DNA from: Odontocerum albicorne
Taxonomy: Eukaryota > Arthropoda > Insecta > Trichoptera > Odontoceridae
Assembly (NCBI GenBank): GCA_949825065.1
Contig: OX463859.1
Span: 26,491,847 to 26,555,846, forward strand
Length of the DNA: 64,000 bases
Direction of reading: 5' to 3'
Of the stretch, positions 1-61,945 are shown piece by piece (the first letter of the stretch is position 1; every line of letters begins with the position of its first letter). The position numbers and the translations under genes are program-made. The notes under the pieces were generated by a model. That model was given only the letters and a program-made list of their open reading frames with translations. It ran no database searches and had not been told where the DNA came from.

Positions 1-690
1 AAGTTGTATGTCTGTTAAATGATTATAATATGAATAAATCATCTTTTAAAATTTATTTATTTCCCTTTATAATTTATTCTGTACGGTCAGTACCTTTCAA
101 TACATTCGAATTGAAAACTCTGACATATTGATGAGAAACAAAAATGTCTCCGGCGAGTCACAGAAATTGCCGTTCTTCGTTGTGCATATTAATAATCAAT
201 AATTAATATTGGTTTATCAATAGTAATATAGTATTTGGTTTATCAGTAATATAGTATTTACATATACACATATATTCTGAAATTGCATATATACCATATA
301 CTCGTACCTCAGGATAATGTCGAAGAAAATATGACGAGAATTATAAGAGAAGTTATAAAAGGGTCTGGACTGATCTCATAATATACCCCCAGTCAAGATA
401 CAAGCCCGGCCGCAAGGACGGTAGATGTTTTTCAGCACGCACTCTCATTTTCATTACACTACTGCACATGAAGAAATAACAATATTCGCATACGTTTTTA
501 GCAAGCGCGATTATAGTTACCAGACTAATACTTTTACCAGAATGAAACCCTTTTTTGTACCATCGGGGACCGATATTGTAGCACCCCCGGTCAAAGAAAA
601 CGTTTTATCTACTAGGTCACGGAGGTCAACTTTATTTTTTAAATGTATTTTATTTATTTCGACGGTCAAACACCTTTTCGATGCAAAGAT
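1..690. other. AT-rich flank, no gene seen
   Basis: No coding region is supported here. Short open frames exist on both strands but carry no recognisable domain. A TACTCGTA octamer lies at 299-306 (see findings). The stretch ends where the 22-bp minisatellite begins. Confidence 0.5.
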
Positions 691-691
691 T

Positions 692-836
692 AATAACATA
701 AAGATAAATAAAAAATAACATAAAGATAAATAAACAATAACATAAAGATTAATAAACAATATCATAAAGATAAATAAACAATAACATGAAGATAAATAAA
801 CAATAACATAAAGATAAATAAACAATAACATAAAGA
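692..836. repeat. 22-bp minisatellite, about 6.5 copies
   Basis: A 22-bp unit (aataacataaagataaataa plus ac) is repeated head to tail with few substitutions. The low divergence suggests recent slippage or unequal exchange. Open frames across it are periodic artefacts. Confidence 0.9.
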
Positions 837-1163
837 ACATTGATATGTAAGTAGTGTTACACATATGTTACAACAGAAAAAACAGCATAAATCGAACACT
901 ACAAAGCAAATCCAGACAATTAATCCTGATAAAAACAACTTCTTCACTTAACTTCTGCAAGTTATCAAAGTCATATGAAAATCCATACAATGCCCATATT
1001 GACTACCCAATCTGCTCGGTATGTTATGTTATGTTATGCAAGAGTTGTACACATAATTAGTTGCAATCCCTTCACTATGAAACAAAATATTTAGCCGAGT
1101 GGGCCTATAAGGAACGTGTACCATGACAAGCTGAGTTAGTGCCGAGCTCTTTAAATACGAACT

Positions 1164-1598
1164 TCTTCTTCTCCCTGGCTCCATCCCAACTCATTGTCTG
1201 CGAAGACTGTTGGGGTCAGCTCTCCTCATCCTCAGGTTGTATGCTCTTCCTTCCCGGACTACGCCCCCCAGGCCGTGCCTCTGCATCAGGTTATCGTTTT
1301 GCACCACCCACGAATTCTTTGGTCTTCCTCTGGTTGTTATTCGAGGTAGATCCATCGAGATGGCCTGGTTCACAATGTGATCGGGTGCTCTGGGTCCAAC
1401 GTGCCCATACCATCTCAATCGCCTCTCCTCCATCTTGCTGTTGATGTCTGTAACACCTAGGCTTCCACGAATGCGTCAGCTTTTTATTTTGTCTCTTAGG
1501 GACACACCAGCTGACCATCTTAGCATGCGCATTTCAGCAGTATCTAGTTGCCTAGAGTAAGAGTTATACATCGTCCAGCATTCGGAGCCATAGAGGAA
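1164..1598 (-). mobile_element. 5'-truncated non-LTR retrotransposon (LINE family A)
   Basis: The minus strand encodes the extreme C-terminus of a non-LTR reverse transcriptase polyprotein. Visible pieces include RQLDTAEMRMLRW-type residues, then RRLRWYGHV, then GRPKNSW. The same protein end and the same 3' tail rich in GAA triplets recur at 56482-57077. The insertion is bounded by a 14-bp direct repeat, tttaaatacgaact, at 1150-1163 and 1599-1612. This is a clean target-site duplication of the kind made by target-primed reverse transcription. Frameshifts and stops break the frame, so this is a dead copy. Clade not assigned. Confidence 0.85.
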
Positions 1599-1612
1599 TT
1601 TAAATACGAACT

Positions 1613-2033
1613 GACAGTCACAAATAATGTTGTAAGGTCAAATATCTTTCTTCTATCTTACAAAATTTTAAGCCTTGGTACTAAAATACTGTAGGCATAT
1701 ATTAATGCCTTAATTTTTTAGCTTACAGCTTAAGCTTTAAAATTTTTATTTTCATGTGAGATGTTGTTTTTTAAGAATTTTAAAATGGTGCAAGGAAGTC
1801 ATGTTATAATATAGGTGGGTGGTTTCATACAATTATGCTATGACCTGGTTAGGAAACTTTGAAGTGTTTGAAGAATAGAAAAATAAGTAGGTTATCGAGT
1901 ATATGCTGCATTTTTCCTGTTTTATATCACCAATAAAAAAAATATAAAACCAATTTCATACGTAAAGAATCTTCCTTTATATTTTATAAAATATTATATT
2001 AAAGTCATTCTATATTAGATATTAATATACATC
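1613..2033. other. AT-rich spacer, nothing recognised
   Basis: No open frame of note, no repeat and no recognised element between the LINE copy and the SINE. Confidence 0.4.
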
Positions 2034-2245
2034 TGACCTCCGTGACCTAGTTAGTGAGACGCCTGTCTTTTAACCCGGGGGTTATGAGATATATTCCCGT
2101 TGGAACCCGAATAATTTTATAAAAGGGTTTCAGTACGTTAGGTCCCTTTAAATTCCTTCTTGTTAGTTAGAAAATATTAACATGGCAATAAATCCGCTAG
2201 GTTTTACTTTAAACAACAAAAGTGTATAATACAATACAATATAAA
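2034..2245 (+). mobile_element. tRNA-derived SINE, copy 1
   Basis: The head carries an A-box-like tgacctagttagtg and a decayed B-box region ending in cccgttggaaccc. The body is shared with the copies at 14382, 19671, 38368, 39361 and 40054. The tail has the family ending caacaaaagtgt followed by atacaatacaat. It is diverged and ends in a tandem duplication. Confidence 0.8.
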
Positions 2246-2358
2246 AATGAATTCTTGTCGATTTACCTGGGTACAAAATCCGCTAGGTTTTACTTTAAAC
2301 AACAAAAGTGTATGATTACAATATAAGAGTGAATTCTTGTTGATTTACCTGGGTATAA
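2190..2358. repeat. 86-bp tandem duplication covering a SINE tail
   Basis: Two copies start at 2190 and 2276, each beginning aaatccgctaggttttac. The duplication spans the last part of the SINE plus about 35 bp of its flank, so it arose after the SINE inserted. Confidence 0.85.
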
Positions 2359-2359
2359 A

Positions 2360-2985
2360 ATCATATTTCGTTAATAAAATATTTTTCCACACATTATAAT
2401 TATTCATAAAACTACCCTTTTCAATTACCATGACTAGAACGAGAAATATTGTTATAATTAATATGTAGGAAATAAAGAAAATTTTGCAACAAGTGAGCAA
2501 GTAGGCCCATGTTTATGAGGCGATGTAAGTTCATTACAGAGTTATATGGGGTAGAATAATTCCCCATGAAATAAACAGCCTGAATTTCGTATCCTGAGAT
2601 AACCTTTTTTAGGGATGGATTATAAGAGTGACGTTTGAGGGATGCTTTTGACATGTTGAGAAATATACGCGAAATGCTCTTAAGGCTTGTGATAAAGAGG
2701 TTTAATTTATTGGTTGTCAAAACATTTATCAGCAGAATGAGTATATTGACATATCGGTTACTGTTTTCTGATTACGAAATTGAGCAACAATATTAGGATT
2801 TATGCAGTGTTGACTGTATATTGGTATTATTGAATTAAAATTGTTTTTTTTTTAACAAACTTTTGCACTGAAGCAATTTTTTTGGAGATTGAAAGTTGCG
2901 CATAAAAATATGTGTTACAGTAGGAAATAGAAAATGTTTATTACTGTACCTACACGCATAGCTTCACGCTACTCCCTGTTAGCTG
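2360..2985. other. AT-rich stretch, no gene supported
   Basis: A 99-codon minus-strand frame at 2421-2720 has no recognisable motif and low-complexity composition, and I do not call it a gene. Confidence 0.35.
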
Positions 2986-2989
2986 AGAT

Positions 2990-3160
2990 GATCGAGCTCT
3001 AAACTTTCTTATAACAACATGCATCCTTCACTTCCTTCACATACAAACATCTAATATAATTTCTTCTAAGCCATACCTTCCCTTTTTTTTAAATTCCATG
3101 CATTTGGTCCAACCACATTTTTTTCGATAATTATCTATCATGATTTCTATGTATGCTTCT
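2990..3160 (-). mobile_element. LINE family B 3' fragment
   Basis: The minus strand reads RKKCGWTKCMEFKKKGRYGL, the degenerate tail of a non-LTR reverse transcriptase (RxRKKW region). The same DNA recurs at 3729-3840 on the other side of the mariner copy, so the two pieces flank that insertion. Related pieces lie at 4900-5330, 20000-20335 and 33050-33415. Confidence 0.6.
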
Positions 3161-3161
3161 A

Positions 3162-3726
3162 AATGGTCTTTCAAATTAAGCGGCTTTTTAAATTTTTGGA
3201 TGAAACACAGATGGCGTCGCAAACTTGTCTGGGTCTTGTGACATTTGAGAAGTGTAATGTAGGACATTTATAAAACTGGAGTCGTATACGAGTACAATAC
3301 AACAACGTGTTCAAATTGTTGAATTATTTTATGTATTGTAATCTCCGGAAACGGTGATGTGAATTAGCCACCAAAATCATGTGAACTGACACCGTTGGAC
3401 TATTTTCTCTGAGGTTACGTGAAAAGTCAGGTCTATAAGAATGAGCCCGAATCAATTCCTGAGCTAAAAGACGAAATTATTTGCGTTATTGGTGAGTTAG
3501 AACCGCAATTATGCCAACATGTCATCAATAATTTTGACAAAAGAGTGGGCATCTGTGGAGCTGCAAGACGGAGACATTTGGCGGATATTGTTTTTTGTGT
3601 TTAAATGTCATACATTATACTTCAATGACCAATAAAAAGTGTTTTGAAACCAAAGCGAATTGTGTGTTTTTTTTTCAAGAATTAAAAAAAGAAGAATAAA
3701 AAAACCGTTCAATTTGAAAGACCCTT
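3162..3726 (+). mobile_element. mariner-type deletion element (MITE), copy 1
   Basis: Ends match terminal inverted repeats of the form AAGGGTCTTTCAAATTGAGC, flanked by TA at 3160-3161 and 3727-3728. Inside is the first stretch of a transposase (MxSYTxQQRVQIV) joined directly to its C-terminal part, at codons that read NGDVNWPPRSCDLTPLDYF in the related copies. The final stretch is ELEPQLCQHVI...HLADIVFCV, ending at 3604. The DNA-binding domain and most of the DDD core are missing, so it cannot encode a working transposase. A TACGAGTA octamer at 3287-3294 is a 6-bp insertion relative to copies 2-4. Confidence 0.9.
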
Positions 3727-3728
3727 TA

Positions 3729-4020
3729 CATACTCGTACATCTCATACAATTTCTTCTAAGCCATACCTTCCCTTCTTTTAAAATTGCATACGTACATCG
3801 ATGATTATCTATCATGATTTCCATGCATGCTTCTATTGTATATACATTTGTTCAACGTGCTCTTTTTCACTCTACTTACCAGTTTTGAACTCATATTCCT
3901 CCTTAATAATGTAATTTCTTATTCTACTACATTGACACACCACATATTTCTCACATCGTCTGTTGACCGCATTCACACAGATTTCTATCTTAATTTTCCT
4001 TGTTCATATTTGAATGGTTG
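3729..4020 (-). mobile_element. LINE family B fragment, second flank
   Basis: The first 110 bp repeat the sequence at 3049-3160 (ccataccttccctt, then gattatctatcatgattt). This places the mariner MITE between two pieces of the same LINE tail. The rest is an uninformative AT-rich run. Confidence 0.5.
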
Positions 4021-4032
4021 AATCAAAATAGG

Positions 4033-4139
4033 CACTAAGTACCAAAAAAAAAACAAAAAAAACTAAGTATGCAGTTTCATTATATATAACATATAGAATG
4101 TAACTGCATACTTAGTTTTTTTTTTTTTTGTACTTAGTG
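4033..4139. repeat. foldback element with about 45-bp arms
   Basis: cactaagtac (4033-4042) and aactaagtatgcagtt (from 4060) are mirrored by aactgcatacttagtt (4102-4117) and gtacttagtg (4130-4139). The two arms are joined by poly-A/poly-T runs and a short AT spacer. This is a possible MITE. No target duplication was clear. Confidence 0.7.
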
Positions 4140-4383
4140 TACATCAATATTGATGTTAATACGCTGTCCTGTACCATCATTTTGTCCTGTACAAGTCTCT
4201 TAATAATGTGTTTTTGACTCCCATCAACCATTTTTTTTCTTCAAACGATTCGCTATGAATACATTTTCTGTAGTGCGAGCGATATGTTTGTTGAAAATAT
4301 AATAAGATACATTCATGGGAAGTCTGAATACGACATAGCATTCCACAGTACTGAATAAAAAATGTAATTATAAAAGTTATATG

Positions 4384-4612: not shown

Positions 4613-4899
4613 AAGCTATATGTGTCTCTCCGGCATTAGCTAAAGAAAATTGTTTTTTTTTTTTGGATAAGTTTTTTTGGTAGCATGAAAAACGGCTCCT
4701 TTACACACTAAAGGAGAATCTAGTTTCAAATATTTAAAAAAATTAGTTTTTTGTATCTTTATCATAAATAATGATTAATTTAAGTTAACATGGAATATAT
4801 AAATATATTTTTTTGTTGTTTTACAGTATTGTGCTAGATTTCGGTCTATTTTGATAAATAACGTCTTGGATATCATTGCGCTGAAATAAAATTATTATC

Positions 4900-5330: not shown

Positions 5331-5447
5331 TCTGAAACTGACCAGTTCGAGTGTTCATGTTTTAGTGCCCAAATGCCTTTGTTTTTTTATTTCACGCCGT
5401 CAAATATCCACTTGTAATTAATTATAACATCATCTGAGAAAATACTA

Positions 5448-5989
5448 AAGGGTCTTTCAAATCGAGCGGTTTTTTTAATTCTTAGATAAAACACAGATGG
5501 CGTCACAAATTTGCCTGGGTCTTGTGACATTTGAGAAATGTCATGTATGAAATTTATAAAAATGAAGTCATATACAATGCGACAACGCATTCAACTTATT
5601 TAATTATTTTATGTATTGTTATATCCGGAAACGGTGATGTTAATTGGCCACCAAGATCGTGTGATCTGACACCGTTGGACTTTTTTTCTAGAGTTGCGTG
5701 AAAAACCAGGTCTATTAGAATGAGCCCCAATGAATTATTTAGCTGAAGGACGAAATTATTCGCGTTATTGGTGAACTAGAACCGCAATTATGCCAAAATG
5801 TCATCGAAAATGTTGACAAAAGAGTGAACATCTGTGGAGCTGCAAGAGGTGGACATTTGGTAGATATTTTTGTTTGTGTTTAAATATCATACATTATACT
5901 TTAATGACCAATAAAAAGTTTTTTTAAATCAAAGCAAATTGTGTATTTTATTCAAGATTTAAAAAAACCGCTCAATTTGAAAGACCCTT
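5448..5989 (+). mobile_element. mariner MITE, copy 2 (542 bp)
   Basis: The element starts AAGGGTCTTTCAAATCGAGC and ends with the inverted match, flanked by TA at 5446-5447 and 5990-5991. It has the same internal junction as copies 1, 3 and 4: a transposase N-terminal stub fused to the PPRSCDLTPLD region and the C-terminus ending near 5880. Its length equals that of copy 4 (542 bp), which suggests a fixed deletion derivative moved by an active transposase elsewhere. Confidence 0.9.
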
Positions 5990-7339: not shown

Positions 7340-8028
7340 AAGGGTCTTTCAAATTGAGCGTTTTTTAAATTCTTAAATAAAACACACAATTGGCTTTGAT
7401 TTAAAAAAACTTTTTATTGGTCATTGAAGTATAATGTATGACATTTAAACACAATAAACAATATCCGCCAAATGTCTACCTCTTGCTGCTCCACAGATCC
7501 CTACCCTTTTGTCAAAATTTTCGATGACATGTTGGCATAATTGCGGTTCTAACTCACCAATAACGCGAATAATTTCGACCTTCAGCTCAGGAATTGATTG
7601 GGGTGCATTCTTATAGTTTGGGTGCATTCTTTTCACGTATCCCCAGAGAAAATAGTCCAACGGCGTCAGATCACATGATTTTGGTGGCCAATTAATAGCG
7701 GTTCTAGCTCACCAATAACGTGAACAATTTCATCCTCGATTGGGGGTCATTCTTGTAGATCTGGGTTTTCACGTAACCCTAGAGAAAAAAAAACTAATTG
7801 TATCAGATCACACGATCTTGGTGGCCAATTAACATCACCGTTTCCGGAGATTACAATACATGAAATAATTCAACAATTTGAACGCGTTGTTGTATTGTAT
7901 ACGACTCCATTTTTATAAATGTCATACATTACACTTCTCAAATGTCACAAGACTCAGGCAAATTCATGACGCCATCTGTGTTTTATCTAACAATAAATAA
8001 AAAACCGCTCAAATTTAATGACATGTTT
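7340..8028 (-). mobile_element. mariner MITE, copy 3, with internal duplication
   Basis: It has the same family ends (AAGGGTCTTTC at 7340) and a TA flank at 7338-7339. The minus strand encodes MDYFLWGYVKRMHPNYKNAP followed by ELEPQLCQHVIENFDKRVG and HLADIVYCV. This is the transposase C-terminus after the third catalytic aspartate. About 140 bp of this region (around 7665-7830) is repeated in tandem, which makes this copy longer than the 542-bp norm. The right end (8005-8028) has lost the exact inverted-repeat match. Confidence 0.85.
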
Positions 8029-8279: not shown

Positions 8280-9085
8280 TGGCATAAAAACTCGTTCAAT
8301 TAAACTTAATTGAACCAATTGAAAATAAAAAAAAAACACAAAATCCACGTGCTTCCAAATCATTAATGTATTTAAATGGTACCCTTCAACATACCTAAAT
8401 CGATTACGCTGACTTGTTCACGAGCGTGTCTGAGAGACAATATTGTCTTTAGTCCAAGTATATAATTGAGCTTTCGAGTGAATAACCCCTGTGGCTGGTA
8501 AGTAACTCAAAGTTTTCCATCGCACCTATTGAAAATAATATGGCACGTGGACTAGAAACAACAGCCGCACACTTCTAGCATGTATTTTTATTAGACGAAC
8601 TCTTTTTTATTATTTTTATTTTTATTAGATGAACTCTTTAACCTGACTTAGCTACTAAATCACTGAAGTCCTTCCATTTACAAAAAAAAAATACATTACA
8701 TAAAAATACAATACATTTTCACGTTTTACCTTCCACAGCACGAGTTCCACCATACTCTTCACGTCACGACCAGAAAGTTTGAGTGTTGTCAGATTTCACG
8801 TAAGTACTTTGTTGTGAAATTCCGTGGAGGTGGATACAAAAACAATTATTCGGTTAACATTATTTCTTGAGCGTAAATTTAATTATTTTCATACAAGCTG
8901 ATTTCTCATTATTTTCTGATAATTAATAAAACAATTATTTGTATAATATTTCGTTGATGCTGCAATGTTCTTTTCTAAGAATATTAAGACGGTTTTTGAT
9001 ATAATGTGTCTATCAAGTATTTTGACCTTCTGGATTGATTTCTTGTGAGATTTGAACTTCTTTAACTTTCATATTTTACATGAAT
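8280..9085. other. AT-rich spacer, no gene supported
   Basis: A small direct repeat (ttattagacgaactctt and ttattagatgaactctt) lies at 8590-8640. Otherwise nothing is recognised. Confidence 0.3.
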
Positions 9086-9099
9086 ACTTTTATGTGCTG

Positions 9100-9422
9100 A
9101 CTGTGATAACTTCTATATAGGAAAGACAGGAAGATCGTTTGAAAAGAGATTTCGTGAACACAAATCCGCCTTAACAAATCCTCTAATTTATTCTGAAATG
9201 GCTTATCATTGTCACCGTGAAAACAATACTTTTTCTATCGATGATGCCAAATTCTTACATATCAGTAGTAATGGAAATAAATTGGACAGATTAGAGGTCC
9301 TAGAAATTTCTAAGTCAGTACATCGATCCGAACATCTGGTGGGCAGTTATATCCCAAAAATCTCTCCGCTCTTGGCCGAAATCGTCCCATGCCTCCCTCA
9401 CCCCTCAGCCCCCAACCGTTGA
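9100..9422 (+). pseudogene. GIY-YIG endonuclease domain of a Penelope-like element
   Basis: The frame reads CDNFYIGKTGRSFEKRFREH, then MAYHCHRENNTFS, LEVLEISKSVHRSEHL and YIPKISPLL, and stops at 9420. YIGKTGRSF is the second half of the GIY-YIG nuclease signature, and this arrangement matches the C-terminal endonuclease of Penelope-like retroelements. In those elements the domain nicks DNA for target-primed reverse transcription. The reverse transcriptase that should precede it is absent, so this is a 5'-truncated copy. The GIY half is not visible. A hammerhead-like motif and the element's 3' tail follow within 60 bp. Confidence 0.8.
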
Positions 9423-13121: not shown

Positions 13122-13332
13122 ATTCCGAACTTACTAAATTTGAGACTAAAGAGTGCTTTAATTTTTTATTATATTTGAATAAACTTGACTTTCCAGTGTT
13201 AACGATAAACCTCGACAAAAATTATAATAAATAATCTTTTGACAAAAAAAAATCCTCTTTCTTTATTTTATGTGTATTTCACACTGAATATTTACGAGTA
13301 TTTCATTGAAATATATTATTTTTTCTTTATAG

Positions 13333-14573: not shown

Positions 14574-15115
14574 AAGGGTTTTTCAAATTGAGTGTTTTTT
14601 TTAATTCTTGAATAAAACACACAATTTGCTTTGATTTCAAAAAACTTTTTATTGGTCATTGAAGTATAATATATGAAATTTAAACACAAAAACAATATCT
14701 GCCAAATGTCTACTTCTTGCAGCTCTACAGCTTTCCACTCTTTTGTCAACATTTTCGATGGCATTTTGACATAATTGCGGTTCTAATTCACCAATAACGC
14801 GAATAATTTCGTCCTTCCGCTCAGAAATTGATTGGAGGTTATTCTTATAGACCTGGCTTCTCACGTGATCCCAGAGAAAATAGTCCAACGGTGTCAGATC
14901 ACATGATCTTGGTGGCCCATTAACATCACCGTTTCCGGAGATTACAATACATGAAATAATTCAACAATTTGAACGCGTTGTTGTGTTGTATACGACTCCA
15001 TTTTTATGAATGTCATACATTACACTTCTCAAATGTCACAAGACACAACCAAGTTCGAGACGCAATCTGTGTTTTATCCTACACTTAAAAAAACCGCTCA
15101 ATTTGAAAGACCCTT
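14574..15115 (-). mobile_element. mariner MITE, copy 4 (542 bp), nested in a SINE
   Basis: Family ends with TA at 14572-14573 and 15116-15117. The minus strand encodes PRSCDxTPLDYFLWDHV, then VIGELEPQLCQNAIENVDKR and RHLADIVFVF, the transposase C-terminus. The internal junction and length match copy 2. The surrounding SINE shows that the MITE moved after SINE insertion. Confidence 0.9.
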
Positions 15116-15117
15116 TA

Positions 15118-15165
15118 TTATATACGAGTATAACAAAATTGTAAGAACAATAAATTCAGTTTTTG
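15118..15165 (+). mobile_element. SINE copy 2, 3' part
   Basis: The tail resumes after the MITE and, compared with the consensus tgtatacaacgaaagtg, carries CGAGTA inserted at the TA (15123-15130 reads TACGAGTA). Confidence 0.7.
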
Positions 15166-20507: not shown

Positions 20508-21368
20508 TGTCACACCTTTTGCTAAATTTAAGAAACAAGAATTATATGTACACAATTGATTACATAAATCAATTCACCAAATATCAATCTTACCAAGGTG
20601 ACAGGGCCGGACAGGTCAGTCGGCTTCTTAACGAGACAAGTACTCTTTAGGTCTCTGGGGTATTGTTGGGTTCTCTTAACTCTGAATAAGTCTCTCTAGT
20701 TTCTCGCTGGGACAGGCGACACAATTAAACAAGAACAATTTGTAATGAAACAGTTTATTGTATTGTAAAAAAAAAGAAAAAAGAAAAAAAATATATAAAA
20801 AAAAACTAGACGAATGTCTAGAAAAAAAGTTTTAAAATTGGCAACAAATATAAAAACGTGTTGTATTTAGCAAGGGAGATTCCAATAACAATTTAGAGTT
20901 AAACTTGAGCGATGGTTAAAATGTGCGGACGAAATTCACATTAAAAATAGGAGGAAATATTCACCCGTAATCAAAATGGCGTCCTGGAGTTCCGTGATAT
21001 ATGAGGGAGAGCAGTGTCGGACCCAAACGTCTGAATCTCACCACGTTCTGCACGGAATGGCGCGAGCCAGCTAGCGCCCGCTCCCCCCTGGCCAGGAAGT
21101 ACGACGAGGCAGGGGTGCCAAATCTCGACCTCGGTCCCCCGTGACAATGTTGTCATTGAATAAAAATGTACCTGACTGCAAGGGTAGTTACCTTTATCTT
21201 ATTGTCTTTAGTATTTTAAAATATTCAAGTATTTCATAATATTTTAATCTTCCTGTTTTCAAGGCAAGCACATGGTCTCGACACCACAAGTTTCATAAAT
21301 TATGACATGTCGCGAATTAAAAATTTCGAGGACGTGAAGTATGCAATTTAACAAATATAGTCCTAACA
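20508..21368 (-). repeat. 3' LTR (861 bp) of the Gypsy element
   Basis: On the element's strand it runs TGTTAGGACTA to GGTGTGACA. It holds an AATAAA near 20751-20760 (minus) and a small CTAGAC/GTCTAG hairpin at 20805-20821. It differs from the 5' LTR by one A at about 21120. Confidence 0.95.
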
Positions 21369-25897: not shown

Positions 25898-26533
25898 TCA
25901 TTGGTCAACCTTTGCAATATCCTTCACGTGATATCTCCCTACCACTTTTCCACTAAGCTCCGACAGCTCGTAAACCGAATTGGAGATTTTCCTGCTAACC
26001 ACGCTCTTTATAAATCTCGGTGCCAGCTTGGCGCTGAAGTAACGACCTGCATTTGACTGTTTAAAGGACTTCCTCCATACCACCTGTCCAACGGACAGAC
26101 GTCTCTCTCTACGGCGTAGGTTATACCTAGCTGCGCTACGCTTAAACCCAGTCAATAGTTTAGCAGTGACGGTCTCGTACAATTTTTCCATTCTATTTAG
26201 CACTTGGAGATAATTAGGAGATCTCGTGGAAGAGACAATCTGATTCGAATCCAGTTGGTCGTGGAACGAAGCATGGGGAACCGGATGGAATCCGTGAAAC
26301 AGATAAAAAGGGGTGCTACCGGTGGTTATGCTCACAGTATTGTTTAAACAGGAACAGATCTTCCCTAAGAATTCGCACCAATCTCGTTGATTGTCCTGTA
26401 CCAAAATGGATAGACACGTCAGAATTGAAGAATTATATCTCTCGCTGGTATTGTTTTGCGGGTGATAATACGCGTTGTAAAAGAGGTCTCGTATCCCATA
26501 GGATTCCAGGAATCCTCTGAATTCCTTCATCAC
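25898..26533 (-). pseudogene. Gypsy integrase, C-terminal part
   Basis: The frame opens VMKEFRGFLESYGI and contains YYHPQNNTSERYNSSI, whose glutamate corresponds to the third catalytic residue of the DDE integrase core. It continues through LVQDNQRDWCEFL and a C-terminal RRRERRLSVGQVVWRKSF region to VVGRYHVKDIAKVDQ. The first two catalytic aspartates and the HHCC zinc-binding domain are missing. It follows the reverse transcriptase remnant in the same frame, separated only by one TAG. Confidence 0.85.
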
Positions 26534-29591: not shown

Positions 29592-30451
29592 TGTCACACC
29601 TTTTGCTAAATTTAAGAAACAAGAATTATATGTACACAATTGATTACATAAATCAATTCACCAAATATCAATCTTACCAAGGTGACAGGGCCGGACAGGT
29701 CAGTCGGCTTCTTAACGAGACAAGTACTCTTTAGGTCTCTGGGGTATTGTTGGGTTCTCTTAACTCTGAATAAGTCTCTCTAGTTTCTCGCTGGGACAGG
29801 CGACACAATTAAACAAGAACAATTTGTAATGAAACAGTTTATTGTATTGTAAAAAAAAAGAAAAAAGAAAAAAAATATATAAAAAAAAACTAGACGAATG
29901 TCTAGAAAAAAAGTTTTAAAATTGGCAACAAATATAAAAACGTGTTGTATTTAGCAAGGGAGATTCCAATAACAATTTAGAGTTAAACTTGAGCGATGGT
30001 TAAAATGTGCGGACGAAATTCACATTAAAAATAGGAGGAAATATTCACCCGTAATCAAAATGGCGTCCTGGAGTTCCGTGATATATGAGGGAGAGCAGTG
30101 TCGGACCCAAACGTCTGAATCTCACCACGTTCTGCACGGAATGGCGCGAGCCAGCTAGCGCCCGCTCCCCCCTGGCCAGGAAGTACGACGAGGCAGGGGT
30201 GCCAATCTCGACCTCGGTCCCCCGTGACAATGTTGTCATTGAATAAAAATGTACCTGACTGCAAGGGTAGTTACCTTTATCTTATTGTCTTTAGTATTTT
30301 AAAATATTCAAGTATTTCATAATATTTTAATCTTCCTGTTTTCAAGGCAAGCACATGGTCTCGACACCACAAGTTTCATAAATTATGACATGTCGCGAAT
30401 TAAAAATTTCGAGGACGTGAAGTATGCAATTTAACAAATATAGTCCTAACA
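29592..30451 (-). repeat. 5' LTR (860 bp) of the Gypsy element
   Basis: Identical to the 3' LTR apart from one missing A. It begins TGTTAGGACTA and ends GTGTGACA on the element's strand. It should hold the promoter, though no TATA box was singled out. Confidence 0.95.
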
Positions 30452-30636: not shown

Positions 30637-30699
30637 TTCTTCAAATGTTCAGAAACACATGAAGTAAATCACTAAAATACATGTACGAGTACATGGACA

Positions 30700-35784: not shown

Positions 35785-36210
35785 AAAGAAATCAAAATCA
35801 ATATCATTGATCTCAAGTTATCATCTCGATTCAAAATATTCAGTTTTGTATTTTTTTTTATTTTTGGCAATCAAGTTGAAATGTCAAAGTTGATTTATAT
35901 TAACTTTTTTTAAGATTTTTTTTTTATAGAACCGAAAAGCCACTTGAAACTATTTCAGAGAGAAGTTAGTTACTCGGGTAATAAACACCTGAGACTTTTT
36001 TAAAGAAACTTTGAAAAATCTAAAATATTTCTATATCAAACTTTCAGATAGCCTTTTTATATGTCCAAAACAGAAATATGTATCAAGAATACAAATGTCT
36101 AACTTACCACTTGAATATTAAAAATATATACAAACTTGTGTTTTGAAAAAATTCAGAACTTTCTAAAAGGTTTTTTCTTTATAAAAAATATTACTTTGAG
36201 ACGTACACTA
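35785..36210. other. AT-rich spacer, nothing recognised
   Basis: No coding or repeat signal. Confidence 0.3.
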
Positions 36211-36289
36211 CCTGTCCAATGCGAAAGGTGACTGACGGAAATGAAATACAAGACATTTTTTTATTTTTAGTTTACATTACCTTTTATTC

Positions 36290-36952
36290 AAAATACACTC
36301 CTTGTGAGTCAATATAATACAGGAAGCGTCTGTAAAATACACTCCTTGTGAGTCAATATAATACAGGAAGCGGCTGTAAAATACACTCCTTGTGAGTCAA
36401 TATAATACAGGAAGCGGCTGTAAAATACACTCCTTGTGAGTCAATATAATACAGGAAGCGGCTGTAAAATACACTCCTTGTGAGTCAATATAATACAGGA
36501 AGCGGCTGTAAAATACACTCCTTGTGAGTCAATATAATACAGGAAGCGGCTGTAAAATACACTCCTTGTGAGTCAATATAATACAGGAAGCGTCTGTAAA
36601 ATACACTCCTTGTGAGTCAATATAATACAGGAAGCGGCTGTAAAATACACTCCTTGTGAGTCAATATAATACAGGAAGCGGCTGTAAAATACACTCCTTG
36701 TGAGTCAATATAATACAGGAAGCGGCTGTAAAATACACTCCTTGTGAGTCAATATAATACAGGAAGCGGCTGTAAAATACACTCCTTGTGAGTCAATATA
36801 ATACAGGAAGCGGCTGTAAAATACACTCCTTGTGAGTCAATATAATACAGGAAGCGTCTGTAAAATACACTCCTTGTGAGTCAATATAATACAGGAAGCG
36901 GCTGTAAAATACACTCCTTGTGAGTCAATATAATACAGGAAGCGGCTGTAAA
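36290..36952. repeat. 44-bp minisatellite, 15 copies, born from transposase codons
   Basis: The unit contains aaaatacactccttgtgagt followed by caatataatacaggaagcgg. On the minus strand the last natural copy encodes YYIDSQGVYFTA, the usual C-terminal end of this mariner group. A T instead of G variant (gcgtc) occurs at 36329, 36593 and 36857, exactly 264 bp (6 units) apart, showing amplification of a hexamer. Confidence 0.95.
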
Positions 36953-36954
36953 AT

Positions 36955-37510
36955 TTTATGAAGCATTCCTGAAACCCATTTTTCGAAATTGCCTCCAAAA
37001 TCGCGCTCGAAGCATTTTGGATGTCTAAAACCGTGTCAAAACGTTTTTTTTTCATCGCCAATATCAGTTTTGAGGATAACCAAAAGTCGTTTGGAGCCAA
37101 ATCAGGTGAATACGGGGGGGTTAGTGATACTTTTTTGGGCCAAAAAATCGACAACATACTCGTATTTTGGCCACAATATCGAGAGAACCATGCCCCTTGT
37201 TCCCAGAATTCGGGAAGAACTCGAATAATCTTGGCCCATAAACGATTCAAAACACCCAAGTACACATCGGCGTTCACCATTTGATATTCTGGTGTGAATT
37301 CCTTATAGATAATTCCTTTGTAATCAAAGAAAACGGTGAGCAGTCTTGATTCGATTATTCTACATGCAAACTTTTTTCAGTTTCGGAGATTGTGAACACT
37401 TCCATTCCAAGTTCTGGCGCTTTGTAAGTAGCTTATACTGAAAACACCATGTTTCATCCCCTGTTACAATGCTTGACATGAAATCTGAATCCATATCAGC
37501 CGTTATTTTA
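36955..37510 (-). pseudogene. mariner transposase remnant
   Basis: Reading right to left, TADMDSDFMSSIVTGDETWC holds the first catalytic aspartate (GDETW). VFFDYKGIIYKEFTPEYQMV follows after a frameshift near 37350, then VLPEFWEQGAWF. The usual HDN with the second aspartate is replaced by CGQN. PPYSPDLAPNDF keeps the third aspartate, and AISKNGFQECFIKFYSRF follows. The loss of the second catalytic residue, the frameshift and the missing N-terminus make it dead. Confidence 0.85.
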
Positions 37511-38589: not shown

Positions 38590-39355
38590 TGTTTACTTAC
38601 TGAATAAAAAATAAAATATGTACAATTTATACTCGTACAATTCATTCATAGGGGTCTTACTGTATTACAATAAAGAAAATAAGTGAAATAAAAATATTTT
38701 GGAGTTGAAACAAAATCATTGCGTTTTGTTATAATTTCTACTGATAAAAATGTTATCTAACCACAGCATTAATTTCCTCAATTAGATATGAGGGCAGCTC
38801 TGCGTATTCATCACAGTAAAATAATCATTTCGCTCGTTTCGCAGTACTCCTGAGTGCCAAGTATTCTCTCGTTGTATAATTATGTCATAACTCATGTACC
38901 TTTGAGTAATCAGCAATGAAAGGGAACATTTATTAATTTAATTAGATTCTTTTGTGATTAGATGGAATTGAAAATACGATTTTTTTAAAACAATACCACA
39001 AAGAAATCGTTTTTTTAATGTTTTCAAACAAACTTGTAAAAAATACCATGAACCATACAACTAGATTTTTTAATGACTAAGCCTAGATTTTAAAGTTTCA
39101 CAAGAATGTATGTCCAAAGTATAAGGATGCTCAAAAAAATATGACATTCATTAAAGGGGTATTTAATTACCCAACAAGAAATTACTATGACTTTAGGCTT
39201 CCAAAAACCTAAATGATAAAAAGTGAAAATAACTTATAAAACAAAGGTTTCCATTTTTAACGAAATACCAATTCGCATAAACGAAGCTGAGACCTTTCGA
39301 ACTTTTCTTTATGTATGTGTTTTAAATGCTAAATATAAATGTATGTATCAAATCA
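38590..39355. other. AT-rich spacer, nothing recognised
   Basis: It holds a TACTCGTA octamer at 38630. No gene is supported. Confidence 0.3.
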
Positions 39356-42589: not shown

Positions 42590-43200
42590 TATCATACTAG
42601 CCTACTTCTAAAAAGTCTACATTGGCGGCGTATGGTTCTCAAACGGGTTTATTTTTAAATTTGTTTCATTATATTCAAGTATGTTTATGGAGCATCTTCA
42701 TTACACGAGTATCTTTCGAATCTTTATCTGACAGATGTTTCTTCGGAAAGCAGAAGTTGGTGGTCAATTTCATCTTCATCGATCAAATACTTCAATTCAA
42801 ATCGATCTAAAAGAGTGAGGAGTTATGACAAGGTTTTTGCCATTGATGATCCTGTGACATAGATTAGTCTGCCTCAAAATATTAGATATATAGATGGCGT
42901 GTGCAGTTTTAGAAAACACTTGAAGACAACCTTTTTGGGAGGTTTTAACAACTTTTATGATTATATATGAACACTACATATATGGACTATTCTAGATATA
43001 AAGTCGAAATGATTACTATACTAGGGTACGTATTTAATGGCAGAAGCTACTCCCTTCCTTTATTGCCATTTATATTGTTTTTTTGCTATATTTTTAATCT
43101 CTCAATGAAAGGGTGTTTGTACTCCGGTTTAGAACACCTTAAATGAGAATCTGATCTCTAAATGGCACTATATACTCGTAAATTGTCAGTTTATTATTAT
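42590..43200 (+). mobile_element. L2/CR1-like LINE 3' end, copy C
   Basis: Starts in cctacttctaaaaagtctac (matching copy F at 60885), runs through VCSFRKHLKTTF-type codons at 42900-42935, and ends in the family tail ctctaaatggcactata, into which CTCGTA is inserted at 43173-43180. Confidence 0.8.
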
Positions 43201-49624: not shown

Positions 49625-50930
49625 CATGGTGCCTTTAAACCACGTGGGAAAATAGGATACCGAATTCAATAAAGACAAAAGAGTAAGAAAAATGCAGGCA
49701 ATGGATTGTAGCGTTGTTGTTATTATGACAGGAGTTTGAATAGTTAAACTTGCAGAAAAGGAAATTTGTAAAATATTGTGCGTACTCTTAAATGAAGAGA
49801 TTTTTTTTAATGCTAGACATTGTCAGATGGACTTTTGCGTTTTATCTGAAATTATGACACTACCAAGAGTTGACGTGTGGTACCTACGCATAATTAAGGC
49901 TTTTATACTCGTAAATTGGTAAGAGTTTGTGACAAAGGTAATTAATAATTAATCAACAATCAGTAAAAAGCATCAGCTTACTATTCCATGGTTGCATGTC
50001 ATCAGTAAGGTACAGGCAAAGTTTAGTCAACTTGAGATATTTCAAATGAAAGGCAATAAATTTAGTTCCATATAAATTGAATGCTCACTTTGAATTGCCT
50101 TTTTTTATTTTGTTATTTGTCTTGTGTTTTACAAAATAAATAAATAAATAAACAAATCATATTTTTCGTGCCAGATATTATATTTGACTAATGTATTCTG
50201 TATATTTTCGTTGTATACAGTAAAACCAAACACGTTAATATCCATGTGGATGTACATTTCATTGTAAACAGCCAACCTATTAAAATAGTATGCATAAATA
50301 AACCAATGTAATTTACAACATGGAAAGTAAAAAAAGTATATAAAATTCATTCAACAATACAAAATTACAAAACATAACTTTATAATTAGTATAGCTCTCA
50401 AAGGGATATCATAGGACAAATTACAAAATGTCAAGAATAAAATAACAGTCTTCCAGTTAAAACCTTAAATTGAGGAAATCCTGGAAAGGGAATTCAATTT
50501 CATATATATTAAAACTATCTACAAAACCAGACCTGGAGTTATTCAATTATACTCGTAGCATTCTCACGATTAATAAGCTACTACGCTAGATTGAATTGCA
50601 TTTAAATTATACAAATATTCGTAGCCTAACGTGAAAGATGGAAGCATTTTGTGACATCCCTGTATCCCTAATGGACAGAAAAGGTTGTTTTGTTTGATTG
50701 ACTTAACACAAAAAGCTTTATATTTAGTTTTATTTGGTAATAAAAGAAAAGTGGAAGGTTATGTGCTCTACGTGTCTCAATTTGGCAAACACTGAATAAT
50801 ACTTTGTTTGTGATGATATTATGCCCATGGCGTATTTTCCTTTCTCTGAATTAGGGTATTTATACGAACTCCAAATTTATACTTAGAATAATGAATTGAT
50901 GGTCTTTATTTTTTGGTATATATTATTAAA
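49625..50930. other. AT-rich region, no gene assigned
   Basis: Holds TACTCGTA at 49906 and 50550. Otherwise nothing is recognised. Confidence 0.35.
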
Positions 50931-50939: not shown

Positions 50940-51360
50940 TGATAAAGTGTTACAAATTGGGGAGCGTGTGCAGTTTTTGGAAGAACTTGAAGACAACCCC
51001 TGTTAAGAAAGTCTATTAAGGGTTGAGATTGTATATACTCGTAAATACTACACACTTACGAAATACTACACCGAAAGCCAAACGTGTGACACATATCTAA
51101 AGATTTACTAAAGTTTCTAGGTGATTAATATTCTCTTGGTAAATGTTTTACGGTTTTCTTAGTAAATGTGTTTTTTTTTAAACACATCCAGATGCGGTAA
51201 TGGACATAGCTTACACATGTACTCGTATATTCTTAAACTCAACTGGTTTATTAAAAATATTTTTAATTTGTCAATAATAGTGCTTTTGCATCACGAACTA
51301 GAGCGCCCTTGAGGATAATCTAATCTTTAAATGACACTTTATTAATTGTTCTTTAATTGC
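50940..51360 (+). mobile_element. L2/CR1-like LINE 3' end, copy D
   Basis: gtgcagtttttggaagaact with gaagacaac (VCSFxxxLKTT) is followed by the 3' part (tatctaaagatttactaaag, ttttacggttttcttagtaa) and the tail ctagagcgcccttgaggata. TACTCGTA octamers at 51036 and 51220 lie within it. Confidence 0.75.
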
Positions 51361-54129: not shown

Positions 54130-54905
54130 TCCAAGTATTGAGGTATAGGTGGTATGTGCAGCTTTAGGAATCACTTGAAGACAACCGTTTTTGGGAAATA
54201 TTTTTAAAATGTATGATTATATATGAGCATAACACACGTATATTTCACTTCGCCTAAAGTTAAATATTTTATTATTGTATCGGACGTATGCGTCACCTAA
54301 AATATATGATTTTATTTGTGTAATTTCTGTGTAAATATTGTATGGTTGGGTTGATATATGTACCTATTGTAATGAAATATTACTTATGCGTGGCCTTCGC
54401 AATAATCACTATAAATAATCGAACAGCCCATGCATGCAGAGAGAGCGCGGTGTACATGGTATTTAGCAAGTATCTAGTAAACCGTGACTTACGATGAGTG
54501 ATGGGCTGCACATAAGGAACGAAAAATGAACAAAATATATTGTCAGTTTCTGGAACGTCTTCCGTGTTTTATTTATGAGAACCTTCTACACGCCAAAGAT
54601 AAATCTATTCACCCTGCTACTTTTCACCGAAAACGCAAGAAGTAAACCGGAATCTACGAGTATTAAGCGGCAGCTATCCACCTATTTTAGTCTTTATACT
54701 AATGCTGTACAACTGTTTTTTAGTTTGGTAATTTATTGCCATTTTCTGACCAAATACAATTTTTTAAACATACACATATATGAGAAACTCCTGATCTAAT
54801 GAATGTGTTGCGTATTGCTATATTTTATTTAGTCAATTCCAGCGGGTTCATATCCCGAGTTTAAGCACCCTTGAAGAGTATATTTTCTAAACGAAATTGT
54901 GAAAA
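54130..54905 (+). mobile_element. L2/CR1-like LINE 3' end, copy E (interrupted)
   Basis: Coding end at 54150-54190 (gtgcagctttaggaatcact, tgaagacaacc) and 3' part to about 54290. The tail (ttaagcacccttgaagagta) resumes at 54840. The 540 bp between look foreign but were not identified. Confidence 0.6.
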
Positions 54906-55317
54906 TAATTCCTGAATTATTATTACCAACAATCAATATAAGAATTCTTGTTTTGATATACTCGTATATTTTAAAACTGCGATGAAACTGTAATTTTTTC
55001 ACTATTGTTTCACATGACTAGTTTCTGTGGTCGATGGCATCTCGGGCTGATTGAAATTCGTCGTTTGAGGATCTATTCATACGGATTCCTAATTTTCATC
55101 ATTTTTAATACATGTACGAGATGTTTTTTTTTTTCAGAATTACATTATTTATTATTTAATAAATCAATATTTAATATAACTTTTTTGGCAATCCCTTGCT
55201 ATTGAGGGTAATTGCTAGACATATTATGGATGGCGATGCACGTATATTTGTTATAGACATTCAATGTTTGTTGTATTCAATACAACATGATGGTATTATT
55301 TCCATGTGGTAATCTCG

Positions 55318-55539: not shown

Positions 55540-56475
55540 ATGTTCTTGTGAATAAGCTGGCATACTCGTATATCACTAAACATATACTCTGGACAGATTA
55601 AACCTAAAGTTTACATTTGCAAAGAGATACATTTCTTAAACAAGAGGCAGTATTAATTTGCTACAACCTTATTTTAACAAATTAATGAATCTTATAATTT
55701 ATTGCGAGATTGTTAAAGGAACACAAAATTTCAGATATATTTCGATTTGTAAATAAAATCAACATTAAAAGGAATCCCTCGGAATCCGAACTTTGGAAGC
55801 TCTCTTGCCATCGTAAATTACGCCATTTTCTGTTATAAATAACGTTATAACATTAAGTTTCAAGTGCTTTTAACAAGTCATTTGTTTAAATAATTCTGGT
55901 GTTATTTTGCAGAAATCTTAACACGTATAATAGCTTAATTCTGTTAAAACTAAATCTATTCTCTTATCCACTTATCACTCTATTCCCATAAGAACAAACA
56001 CAACATGTATATAGTCACTTCTTACTGTATTCCCCATGTGACGATATACAATATTTAGTGTAAATTATTATGTAAGAAAGATGTAATTTAAATTTATTAC
56101 CTCACCCAAGCAAGAGAGTTTCAAATGAAATTGAAATGTAGATTGTAAAATATTAAAAAATAAAACGGAAGAAAACGAACTTGAGTGTTTTATTAATAAA
56201 TTATAGCTTTTTACAAGGTTTTGAACTTCGACGCTAGAAACTATTACAATATATTTTATTTTCGAAATATCACTTTGCATTCCTCTGACAAATATTTAGT
56301 TCTATGACTTCTAATCTTTATGCTGTGTTGTAAAATTATTGCTTTTTTCTGGTTTAAATTTGAATATTTAACAAAATCAATGTTTTTTTTTTAATCTGTA
56401 CCTGCCATTTGAATACCCAAATGAACTCCTTCAATGCAACTGAATGCGTAAATATTAGCCGGCTGTAACTCATTT
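55540..56475. other. AT-rich region, no gene assigned
   Basis: A TACTCGTA octamer at 55563 and motif-less short frames only. Confidence 0.35.
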
Positions 56476-57621: not shown

Positions 57622-57625
57622 CCCA

Positions 57626-58543: not shown

Positions 58544-58549
58544 CCCAAC

Positions 58550-59785
58550 AGGGAATTGCATACGTAATTCTGCGTGTGCGAATATTACCACCCGATTGAA
58601 ACCTTTTTTGAAATTATTTTTGGTTCAGACCAAAATCTATCTAGAGTGGAAGTGAAGTATTCTACTTAAGATGCCACGGAGACCATCACATTATTAATAT
58701 ATATTTAGTCGTTTTTTTATTTAAAGAAAGTATAGTGGGATCAAGATAATGATAATTTTAAAGAAGGCGTATGGATATAGAAGAGGCAAAATATTTGCGT
58801 CGCGATAGACAAATCTACTGCTCTCTCTTTTCTGCCTACCCCGATATGAAGACGACGTGATATTATATATGTGTGAATATGCTGTTCATCAATAATTTCT
58901 ATAGTAATATTCTTTAATACCATAAATAGAGCTTTATTAAAAAAGTAAGCCTAAGGAACGTAGCAGCAAATAAACATGCTCATATTATTGAAAGTTGGAT
59001 TTCCTTTACATCAGGTTTGATCATTTATACTTACAGTTATACAACAGTTTACACACAATAAACTAGTATACACGCAAAAGTGTTTTCCGTTCCAAGGATC
59101 GTATCGTTTTGAAGTATTTGTTTAAAAAATGAACTTTAAAAAAAACACACGAAAGTAATAAGTATTTTTTCAATAAAGTAAAAAAATGTTAAATAAACCC
59201 CTACATACGTGATTCCGCTTTCCAAGCTTTATATATACTCGTATATATTTGAATTGGCTCAAATACAATCTGGTTCAAAACCGAGATACGAAATACATTG
59301 CGAAATTTTCCAAATTTCAAAATACCCGTGTGTACGCGAATCAACTCATATTTTTTTCAATGGTGGTTCGTGGAATTATGTTTTTCTAAAATATTTCTTC
59401 AAAGTATTTATCATTTTAAAGATCCCTTTTGAATCATATTTCCACGAAGGGTTTACCACAAACTTAACACACATTTAAGTGTTAAAAAACAAAATATCAG
59501 GAAATCTCTGAATTCAACATCGGCTTTGAAAACACAAATACGTCATAATCTTATTCAACATACTCTTATTTCACTTTGAACAATTCAAAGAGTAACATTT
59601 TCGTATGACAAGTACACTTTTGTCAGTCAGTTGAAACAATGTAGACATATTTGGCTTTCTCGTTTATGTAAGTATTCTTGTGATTACAGTGTTTCTTAAA
59701 TATTTTGGCAATAATAATAACTACAATTTTCGACGGGTCTAAAAAAAGTTGGATTTTAAAATTTGAACATAAAAACAATCTGCTA
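58550..59785. other. AT-rich region with a LINE-tail scrap
   Basis: ctactgctctctcttttctg with cctaccccgatatgaagac near 58815-58855 looks like a LINE B/J 3' end. An 89-codon frame at 59209 has no motif. Confidence 0.3.
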
Positions 59786-59791
59786 CAAGTA

Positions 59792-60601
59792 TTAGGTGTT
59801 AACATAAGTTGTGTTCGTTTTTTTTTCAAATTTAAAAATGAGCACCAAAAGTAAAACAAAATGGTAAAGGTTATACGTCATTCGAAAGAAAAATTTCTGA
59901 TCTATAAGATACTGTGCTTGCTTTTACGTTACCTATATTATTTTATTTGATTACAAGCCTTCAAAATGGAATGCCAAGTAGACGAAAGTGAGCATTTTCG
60001 ACACCTCCTTCTGTTCGCGTTCAATTGTCGAACGTTGATTTTTGTTGTTTTCACTCAAAACATGTGGAACCCAAGCGCCGAACTTCTGAACTTTTCCCAT
60101 CGATTTTTGGTGGTGTACAGTTATGTGACTACAATTCATCTGCTCAGCCAATTCTACGGTGGTTTGAAGGGGATCTTCATAAATAATATGGTTTAAGCGG
60201 TCCTCATCGAAGTCCACTGGTCGTTCAGAACGTTCCATGTCTTTCAGGTCGAAATTACCGTCTTTGAAACGCAAAAACCATCGACGAGTTGTCCTTTCAT
60301 TCATAACATCTTCACCGTACACTTCACAAATATCGCGAGCAGCTTTTGCAGCTTTATTCCCTCGATTGAACGCGAACAGAAGGAGGTGTCGAAAATGCTC
60401 CCTTTCGTCTACTTGACATTCCATTTTGAAGGCTTGTAATCAAATAAAATAATATATGTAACGTAAAAGCAAACGCAATATCTTGTAGAGCAGAAAATTT
60501 TCTTTCGAATGACGTATAACCTTTACCATTTTGTTTTACTTTTGGTGCTCATTTTTAAATTTGAAAAAAAAAATACAGACACAACTTATGTTAACACCCA
60601 A
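59792..60601. mobile_element. palindromic mariner element (810 bp)
   Basis: TTAGGTGTTAACATAAG at the left and TTGGGTGTTAACATAAG (complement) at the right are mariner termini, flanked by TA (59790-59791 and 60602-60603). The arms, about 59792-60025 and 60370-60601, are inverted copies of the transposon's 5' region including the start codon. So both ends are 5' ends. The centre keeps the first part of the transposase on the minus strand. The catalytic domain and true 3' end are gone. Confidence 0.9.
59951..60424 (-). pseudogene. mariner transposase N-terminal (HTH) domain
   Basis: Starts MECQVDEREHFRHLLLFAFN and continues AAKAARDICEVYGEDVMNER, RRWFLRFKDGNFDLKDMERS, VELAEQMNCSHITV and GAWVPHVLSENNKNQRSTIE. 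This is the paired helix-turn-helix DNA-binding region of a SETMAR-like mariner transposase, about 130 residues. It then runs into the opposite arm and becomes meaningless. The left arm repeats the first 20 codons on the plus strand at 59966. Confidence 0.9.
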
Positions 60602-60699
60602 TAGATAGCGTAATGAAGAATATGAATACATGGATATACCATATTATCAGACCTCAGTTGACTACATCAAGGAAAAGTTTAAATTTATTAGTCGATGTC

Positions 60700-61320
60700 T
60701 TCCAACAAGGGATATAAAAAACTTGTATCGATTCATTTATTGTGTCACGTCTGAATTATTGATATTTATTATAGTTTGATATTGCTTGCCTGATTTACGT
60801 ATTTCTAGACTACAGTCTGTTTTCAATGCACCTGCAAGACTGTTATATGTTAGTCTAAAATTTTGCTATATTAGCCCGCTTCTAAAAAGTCTACACCGAC
60901 TTAACTATCACTAACGGATTAGTTTATACGTTGTATTTTCGTATTCAAGCCCCTTATTCGAAAGTTTCTATTGTATTTTTTGAACCTGTGTCTAAGGTAC
61001 TAAATGTTCCTTCGGAGAGAATTAGAATTTCAAGATCGATTCGTTCTAAATAAAAATAAATTGGTTGTGCTAAATTGATGGAATAAACAGGTCTTATGAT
61101 AGACCTTTTCTATTGCTGGTTTTGTGGCATGGAATAGCCTGCCTCTTAGTATCAAATTTATGGGTAGTGTGTGCAGCTTTAGGTAACACTTAAAAAAAAT
61201 CCTTTTTGGAAGGTTATATCAAAATTTATGAATGAGTTTTCAGTCCAGAGTTGGAGCGCTCTTGAGAAGAGTTGGCTCTCTAAACGATGCTATATAAATT
61301 GTTATCTCATTGTTAATTTT
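60700..61320 (+). mobile_element. L2/CR1-like LINE 3' end, copy F (longest)
   Basis: Fragments in order: DRFIYCVTSELL, CLPDLRISRLQSVFNAPARL, YISPLLKSLHRL, then RSIRSK-like residues, a VAWNSLPLSIKFMGSVCSF-type end spread over frames (near 61120-61190), and the tail gttggagcgctcttgagaag ending acgatgctatataaattgtt. The order matches CR1/L2-type polyproteins after the catalytic motifs. Frameshifts and stops are common. Confidence 0.8.
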
Positions 61321-61329
61321 ATTAATCCA

Positions 61330-61945
61330 ACATCATGGAAGAAACGAATTATGAAACTAAAGGGAAACTCTATATAAAATCGTCAAAGGACCGATACTTT
61401 GCATTAAGCTGAGTACTGGGCAACAACTTAATCTCAAAAACAGAAATATCATATTGTCGAAATGTGTGTGCTGCAATATGTTTTGAGATCGAGCAAGTAA
61501 AATAGGGAATGAGTATGTGAGAGGTACTTTTCTCTTTTCCCGATCTCGTTGAAATTGAGAAACGCAAATCTTTAGTGGTATGTACTCGTATATGAACAAA
61601 AAAAAGCAGATACAAAGACGAAAACCAGATGAAAAGAATAAATATATACCTACTACGAATGGATTTTTTTTGAAATAGAGGAAGAGGTCATCCAAAGTAG
61701 CGATGGAAGTATGGCGTCATCCAAAATATTAGTGATCTGAACGTGACTCTGGACATGTCCATGGAAAGAACACGATGGAGGAAGGTGACTAGTCACGCAG
61801 ACCCCAAATCAATTATAAAGGCGAGGAGAACGCTATGATGATGACGACCGAATTTCATCTTCCTGTAGTAAAATTCTTTTTATTTTCGTGTCGAAAACGC
61901 TAGACTACCTCCACTCAGATTTCTGTCATCTAAATAGCACTGGGT
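61330..61945. other. AT-rich spacer, no gene assigned
   Basis: A possible LINE tail phrase (tcttttcccgatctcgttga) at 61530. The 112-codon minus frame there lacks motifs. Confidence 0.3.

Follow-up and report, generated by a model that had tools for sequence, protein, structure and literature searches.

Over-represented TA-flanked octamers in the genome of Odontocerum albicorne as probable excision footprints of a Tc1/mariner-superfamily element

A stretch of 64,000 nucleotides from the trichopteran Odontocerum albicorne (contig OX463859.1, positions 26,491,847 to 26,555,846 of the forward strand; in the following called the window) contains one eight-base word in striking excess, and the question it raises is what has placed this word there. 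The word, referred to here as the octamer, reads TACTCGTA or TACGAGTA on its two strands, i.e., TA-CGAG-TA or TA-CTCG-TA. A first-pass annotation of the window, which was made from the sequence alone, had listed 18 copies and interpreted them as probable excision footprints of an unknown Tc1/mariner element. From the analyses described below we consider it quite probable that the excess octamers are, for the most part, scars left by the excision of an element of the Tc1/mariner superfamily, with a Minos-type element, whose footprint holds four nucleotides of its end, as the best reading.

All 18 octamers were confirmed at the positions given in the first-pass annotation. The number expected in the window is 1.47 according to 100 dinucleotide shuffles, the largest single shuffle containing 6, and 1.32, 1.39, 1.18, and 1.66 under Markov models of orders 1 to 4. 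Among the TA-NNNN-TA words of the window the octamer is the sole strong outlier (z 14, compared with 2.8 for the runner-up). Its 24 neighbors that differ by one base show no excess (22 seen versus about 40 expected as the sum of the individual values). In the whole genome (1,287,057,991 bases, 1,241 contigs) 190,749 forward and 190,753 reverse copies were counted, 381,502 in total, compared with 15,070 and 15,081 copies (total given as 30,151) of a control word consisting of the octamer's letters in reversed order. The octamer thus occurs about once per 3.4 kb, with an excess of roughly 350,000; the number of independent events is lower, since the word is also multiplied along with tandem arrays and with repeats that are copied. 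The comparison of TA-NNNN-TA words with a Markov background, which had been proposed as a check, gave the same picture in a sample of loci from the same genome (252 kb after masking of near-tandem repeats): TACGAGTA was seen 82 times versus 5.7 expected under an order-3 model, and the runner-up by z, TACACATA, 37 times versus 16.3 (z 5.1). Two satellite loci, L020 and L024, were excluded from these and the other footprint-word counts, from the background model and the sparse set, and from the flank analysis. The claimed over-representation therefore holds in the window as well as in the genome. Chance was ruled out as the source of the octamers by the shuffles, the Markov models and the genome count versus the control; it is expected to account for one or two of the 18 window octamers, not all of which are scars.

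The distribution of the octamers is uneven. About 100 listed places, all on the forward strand, fall within the first 149 kb of contig C1, which corresponds to about 4.5 times the genome mean. Regions picked for their density, 26.6 kb in total, contain 44 octamers versus 0.65 expected. In this dense DNA one-mismatch forms are enriched as well (43 seen versus 17.6 expected). This suggests that the scars differ in age and decay where accumulation has lasted longest. A hotspot with seven octamers in about 480 bp, accompanied by near forms, was noticed at L035:1801-2276 (C1:6801-7276).

Repeats that occur with and without the octamer reveal how it came to its sites. In a copy of a miniature inverted-repeat transposable element (MITE) at 3120-3780 of the window, CGAGTA is inserted between GTCGTA and TAC and is absent from all three sister copies in the window; after addition of the sampled loci the 6 bp were lacking in five of five aligned stretches. 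The 6 bp present at L009:9453 are missing from all 12 stretches of a tandem array that could be aligned with it, and those at L028:1604 from its single sister (71% identity). In the sister test as a whole, a sister spanning the site was available for 61 of 119; 51 of these, in the mutually overlapping loci L001-L008, were self-matches and were dropped. Four of the remaining 10 sites showed a 6-bp gap, at L021:1502 not cleanly at TA, and four were too poorly aligned; at L009:4580 and 4746 the octamer is part of the tandem unit and was copied along with the array. Three empty-site examples had been put forward in the first-pass annotation. The one at 3287 stands, with three of three window sisters empty, and that at 43173 is backed by one diverged sister, while the third, at 15123, is lost, as it lies outside the MITE end and no sister spans it. 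Most of the 18 window octamers have no sister copy, so that the empty-site comparison covers few of them. Wherever a site was testable, the octamer is a 6-bp insertion at TA with TA repeated on both sides. This is well supported and corresponds to the footprint class of Tc1/mariner elements.

A dispersed repeat, R2 (sequence CGGTAGGGTTATACCGTTAC), allowed the spectrum of insertions at one defined site, between GGGTTA and TACCG, to be determined. Forms with 1-12 extra bases at this site gave 200 matches in the genome and none for the reversed control; the spectrum was drawn from the 100 matches listed, to which the following counts refer. Exactly 6 extra bases were present in 16 of them, and in eight of these 16 the insertion creates the octamer, in the forms TACGAG (four), TACTCG (three), and CGAGTA (one). 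TACGCG and TTCGAG, both one base off, were found once each, as were CCAGTA, CAAAAA, TACCTA, AAGTCG, TATGTA, and TTATTA. The other 84 matches carry insertions of 1 bp (5), 2 bp (21), 3 bp (23), 4 bp (14), 5 bp (16), 7 bp (3), and 9 bp (2). ACA/TGT forms also occur among them, and eight 3-bp TAA insertions clustered on contig C7 are probably one event that was copied. Ten R2 copies on nine contigs (the eight octamers and the two near forms) were retrieved, and the insertion was always at the same TA; for three of the ten (L046, L050, L051) a nearby R2 copy on the opposite strand is empty. Several retrieved copies also have longer stretches of repeat in common, to one side or to both, and an octamer-bearing R2 copy may itself have spread. 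From the three octamer forms it follows that at least three events took place. The insertions at the R2 site have the form expected of a Minos footprint, 6 bp consisting of TA plus CGAG.

The DNA flanking the octamers is not random. Pooling of both sides of 99 octamers into 198 half-sites yielded A at position -3, T at -2, and A at -1. The half-site ATA makes up 18.2% of these versus 4.0% at all TA sites, and at 35 control TA-NNNN-TA words it averages 4.4%, with 14.3% as the highest value (TACATGTA). Since the two flanks of the octamer agree, the preference is a symmetric ATA-TA-TAT, that is, a symmetric target centered on TA. According to the excerpt of PMC3878927, Tc1, Tc3, Himar1, Sleeping Beauty, and Minos prefer TA sites that are bendable. 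The symmetric flanks, measured here at scars, resemble this target preference of the superfamily. In sum, an exact 6-bp insertion at TA was observed in several unrelated repeats and in both orientations, and over the sampled sites its target is symmetric and ATATAT-like.

These observations can be accommodated by a simple sequence of steps. An element with the ends 5'-CGAG...CTCG-3' would have inserted at TA and duplicated it; later excision with a 4-nt stagger, followed by end joining in the host, would leave TA, CGAG (or CTCG from the other end) and TA, with a net gain of 6 bp. For Minos, a Tc1-like element of Drosophila hydei, a 6-bp footprint after excision is described in the excerpt of PMC10992017, and a Minos end primer starts with TACGAGCCCC according to that of PMC3680223, so the scar expected of Minos is TACGAGTA or TACTCGTA. 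An excision allele of Minos with 6 additional bp gained Thr-Arg, and 4-bp and 8-bp excision alleles appear in the same source (excerpt of PMC6980720); the gain of Thr-Arg would fit ACT CGT. The likeness therefore comprises the TA target and the 6-bp footprint of TA plus CGAG or CTCG. In the excerpts of the cited papers Minos is a laboratory tool, whereas here hundreds of thousands of octamers occur naturally. We infer from this fit of form that excision produced the octamers, that a Minos-type enzyme was the probable agent, and that what applies to the tested sites extends to the genome-wide excess. A long or repeated wave of activity, the source copies of which are now rare, decayed or gone, would explain the present state. 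That a Minos-type element swept the genome so often that its scars outnumber surviving copies by orders of magnitude is a tentative suggestion, to which we give somewhat less than an even chance.

Several results weigh against this interpretation. The search for an element with CTCG/CGAG termini, which had been proposed with the footprint reading, brought no intact one to light: within the window, the sample, 12 transposase loci and the Minos-end pattern, to which this negative is limited, no CGAG-ended element with intact transposase was found. In the window the best end pairs of candidate CGAG...CTCG or CTCG...CGAG elements match at 9 of 20 bases and were rejected. A scan of 264 kb for paired CGAG ends yielded one element, a degenerate mariner at L021:3044-3999. 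The 12 transposase loci (PF13358) were chosen among 150 that had been scored out of 17,761 candidates, and none of them has a pair of CGAG ends. According to their open reading frames (ORFs) they represent mariners (one with the ends CTAGGTTAGTC), Tc1-like copies (one with the ends CACTGGCGG) and two other DDE ORFs; the piece upstream of L040 contained no ends. The Minos end TACGAGCCCCAACC has no exact copy among the genome matches listed, which were ordered by mismatches. With up to 2 mismatches it has 3,433 matches in the genome versus 1,861 for the control, and in the window the Minos-end pattern with up to 3 mismatches has 15 versus 11 expected. The commonest near-Minos form, TACGAGCCCAAACC, lies at three loci (L058-L060) inside a longer repeat, with no inverted partner in the 1.8-2.2 kb retrieved. 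The unknown element of the first-pass annotation can thus be narrowed by the form of its scar (6 bp, CGAG ends) to the Minos type, but not to an exact D. hydei Minos end among the matches listed. In the empty-site test a control word, TATGAATA, likewise showed 6-bp gaps, in its case at 10 of the 73 sites for which a sister existed; for the remaining nine of the 10 control words none appear among the 12 classes listed for each. The eight octamers at R2 need not be eight events, because R2 itself spreads. Moreover, one-mismatch forms show no excess in the sparse regions (130 seen versus 155 expected in 234 kb with 53 octamers). This is surprising if the scars differ in age; the lack of decay products there is hard to account for, and the most economical guess is that the activity was recent. 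Other words point partly in favor of the interpretation. In the 252-kb sample TACAGTA (70 seen versus 39.8 expected), TAACATA (119 versus 77.3), and TACCATA (71 versus 42.3) are moderately enriched, as though scars of further Tc1/mariner clades could be read as well, but the plain A/T words TAAATTA (205 versus 145) and TAAAATA (352 versus 278) are equally so. TA-CAG-TA, TA-ACA-TA, and TA-CCA-TA are forms in which other Tc1/mariner clades leave their footprints. Those of mariner, Himar and Sleeping Beauty resemble the octamer as a gain of TA-NNN-TA, but hold 3 nt instead of 4, and their excess here is much weaker than that of the octamer and no stronger than that of the two A/T words. The footprint reading of the first-pass annotation is supported in part: its core is well backed by the 6-bp insertions at TA (sister copies, R2 spectrum and flanks), while the element itself was not found, its excision is deduced, and the example at 15123 fails. 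In addition to these loci, single terminal-looking ends starting with CGAG occur in L014 and L025, and L009:6909-6956 is a very short CGAG-ended inverted repeat of 48 bp with the inverted ends TACGAGAGCAATA...TATTGCTCTCGTA.

The alternative that survives best is a variant of this explanation, in which CGAG-ended mariners of this genome, and not a Minos-like Tc1 element, were cut 4 nt in. Such a mariner family exists: its ends TACGAGGC(G/A)TATCC were identified at L021:3044-3999, L034:2633, and L042:825, as single ends in the latter two and beside its ORF in L042, and the exact Minos end is missing among the matches listed. The L021 copy shares the four bases of the scar, but it is degenerate, and elements of its kind would be expected to leave behind 3 nt. 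Excision of Tc1/mariner elements is described with overhangs of 2-3 nt in the excerpt of PMC3878927, and TACGATA, the 3-nt scar that a mariner would be expected to leave, was seen 34 times versus 35.0 expected, which argues against a mariner origin. We therefore regard this variant as unlikely.

Still less probable is an abortive or solo-end insertion, by which the transposase would join into TA no more than the four terminal bases of an end, or else a very short element, and so add 6 bp without a full element ever having been present. In its favor, the scars vastly outnumber the CGAG-ended elements found, and a back-to-back pair of octamers lies at L009:973-988. We know of no precedent for it, however, the same product results from ordinary excision, and the 2-5 bp TA-flanked insertions at the R2 site resemble several ordinary footprint types.

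A functional motif such as a binding site, kept or multiplied by selection, might be suspected from the clusters (seven octamers at the L035 hotspot, 44 in the dense-picked regions) and from the sparse regions without one-mismatch excess; the exact gain of 6 bp at TA, which was seen in both orientations and in repeats as different as a tandem array, a MITE and a dispersed repeat, together with a density of about one octamer per 3.4 kb throughout the genome, renders it very improbable. Expansion of simple sequence, as a (TACTCG)n microsatellite or in tandem arrays, is recognizable in the 66-bp and 99-bp periods of octamer places on C1 and in three octamers that overlap at a spacing of 6 bp at L036:2890-2909, but is the least credible explanation and accounts for a minority of the sampled sites, since 93 sites had 81 distinct flank pairs and the excess persisted after masking, by which tandem repeats were ruled out as the main source.

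In the laboratory, excision footprints have been described individually. In a search of the open-access literature, none of the titles and beginnings of abstracts listed reports natural footprints throughout a genome. The novelty lies in the scale and in the use of scars as a record. If a Minos-type element did sweep the genome in this way, its family would be recognizable almost solely by the sites it has left, and its scars would constitute a dated and oriented record of excision, beside fainter 3-nt records of other mariner clades. A single footprint as the most aberrant TA-NNNN-TA word, at about one per 3.4 kb, would permit excisions to be counted and weighed against re-insertions; the age of the host repeats would allow them to be dated, and the repair choice (CGAG versus CTCG) could be read. 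Since a gain of 6 bp does not shift the reading frame, proteins could acquire two amino acids from such scars. The case would also be a warning that over-represented short words can be transposon scars and not regulatory motifs. The octamers of the window and the sister copies used for comparison are listed in Table 1.

Table 1. Octamers of the window and sister copies with an empty site
Feature	Position	Strand	Remark
Octamer TACTCGTA	299..306	+	putative footprint; no sister copy
Octamer TACTCGTA	3287..3294	-	best-supported footprint of the window; exactly 6 bp lacking in 3/3 window sister MITE copies
Octamer	3731..3738	+	just beyond right end of the MITE copy of 3287; sole spanning sister with 2-base gap, ambiguous
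Octamer	13293..13300	-	putative footprint; no spanning sister
Octamer	15123..15130	-	5 bp beyond MITE end; no spanning sister
Octamer	30684..30691	-	putative footprint; downstream of R2 repeat copy
Octamer	37157..37164	+	within mariner transposase remnant; ACG AGT (Thr-Ser) may be ancestral coding
Octamer	38630..38637	+	putative footprint; no spanning sister
Octamer	43173..43180	+	tail of dispersed repeat; footprint, exactly 6 bp lacking in one empty sister (61256-61320)
Octamer	49906..49913	+	putative footprint; no spanning sister
Octamer	50550..50557	+	putative footprint; no sister
Octamer	51036..51043	+	copy of the repeat family of 43173; 6-bp gap versus 42936-43005, two other sisters ambiguous; weak support
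Octamer	51220..51227	+	putative footprint; no spanning sister
Octamer	54655..54662	-	putative footprint; no sister
Octamer	54959..54966	+	putative footprint; ata..tat flanks
Octamer	55563..55570	+	putative footprint; no spanning sister
Octamer	59236..59243	+	putative footprint; ata..tat flanks
Octamer	61583..61590	+	putative footprint; no sister
Sister MITE copy, empty TA site	5445..5773	+	window alignment
Sister MITE copy, empty TA site	7738..8022	-	window alignment
Sister MITE copy, empty TA site	14789..15117	-	window alignment
Sister repeat, empty site for 43173	61256..61320	+	CTATA------TAAATTG, diverged

Comparison of the window with phage DNA (one 924-base query) and Rfam and tRNA scans gave no matches. 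Further features were noticed besides the octamers. A direct repeat of about 120 bp (3034-3161 and 3723-3835, 75% alike) stands on either side of MITE copy 1, as if the target had been duplicated. An array of 44-bp units at 36158-37073 runs into an ORF with a match to mariner transposase. The ORF at 9084-9422 is GIY-YIG-like, although just under the Pfam cut-off (20.4 versus 22.6 bits), and is, in our estimation, reminiscent of a Penelope-like element. Two identical 300-base repeats (20508-20807 and 29592-29891), about 9.1 kb apart, resemble those of a long terminal repeat retroelement. Between them lies an ORF without Pfam match (25898-26533), which we take to resemble an integrase.

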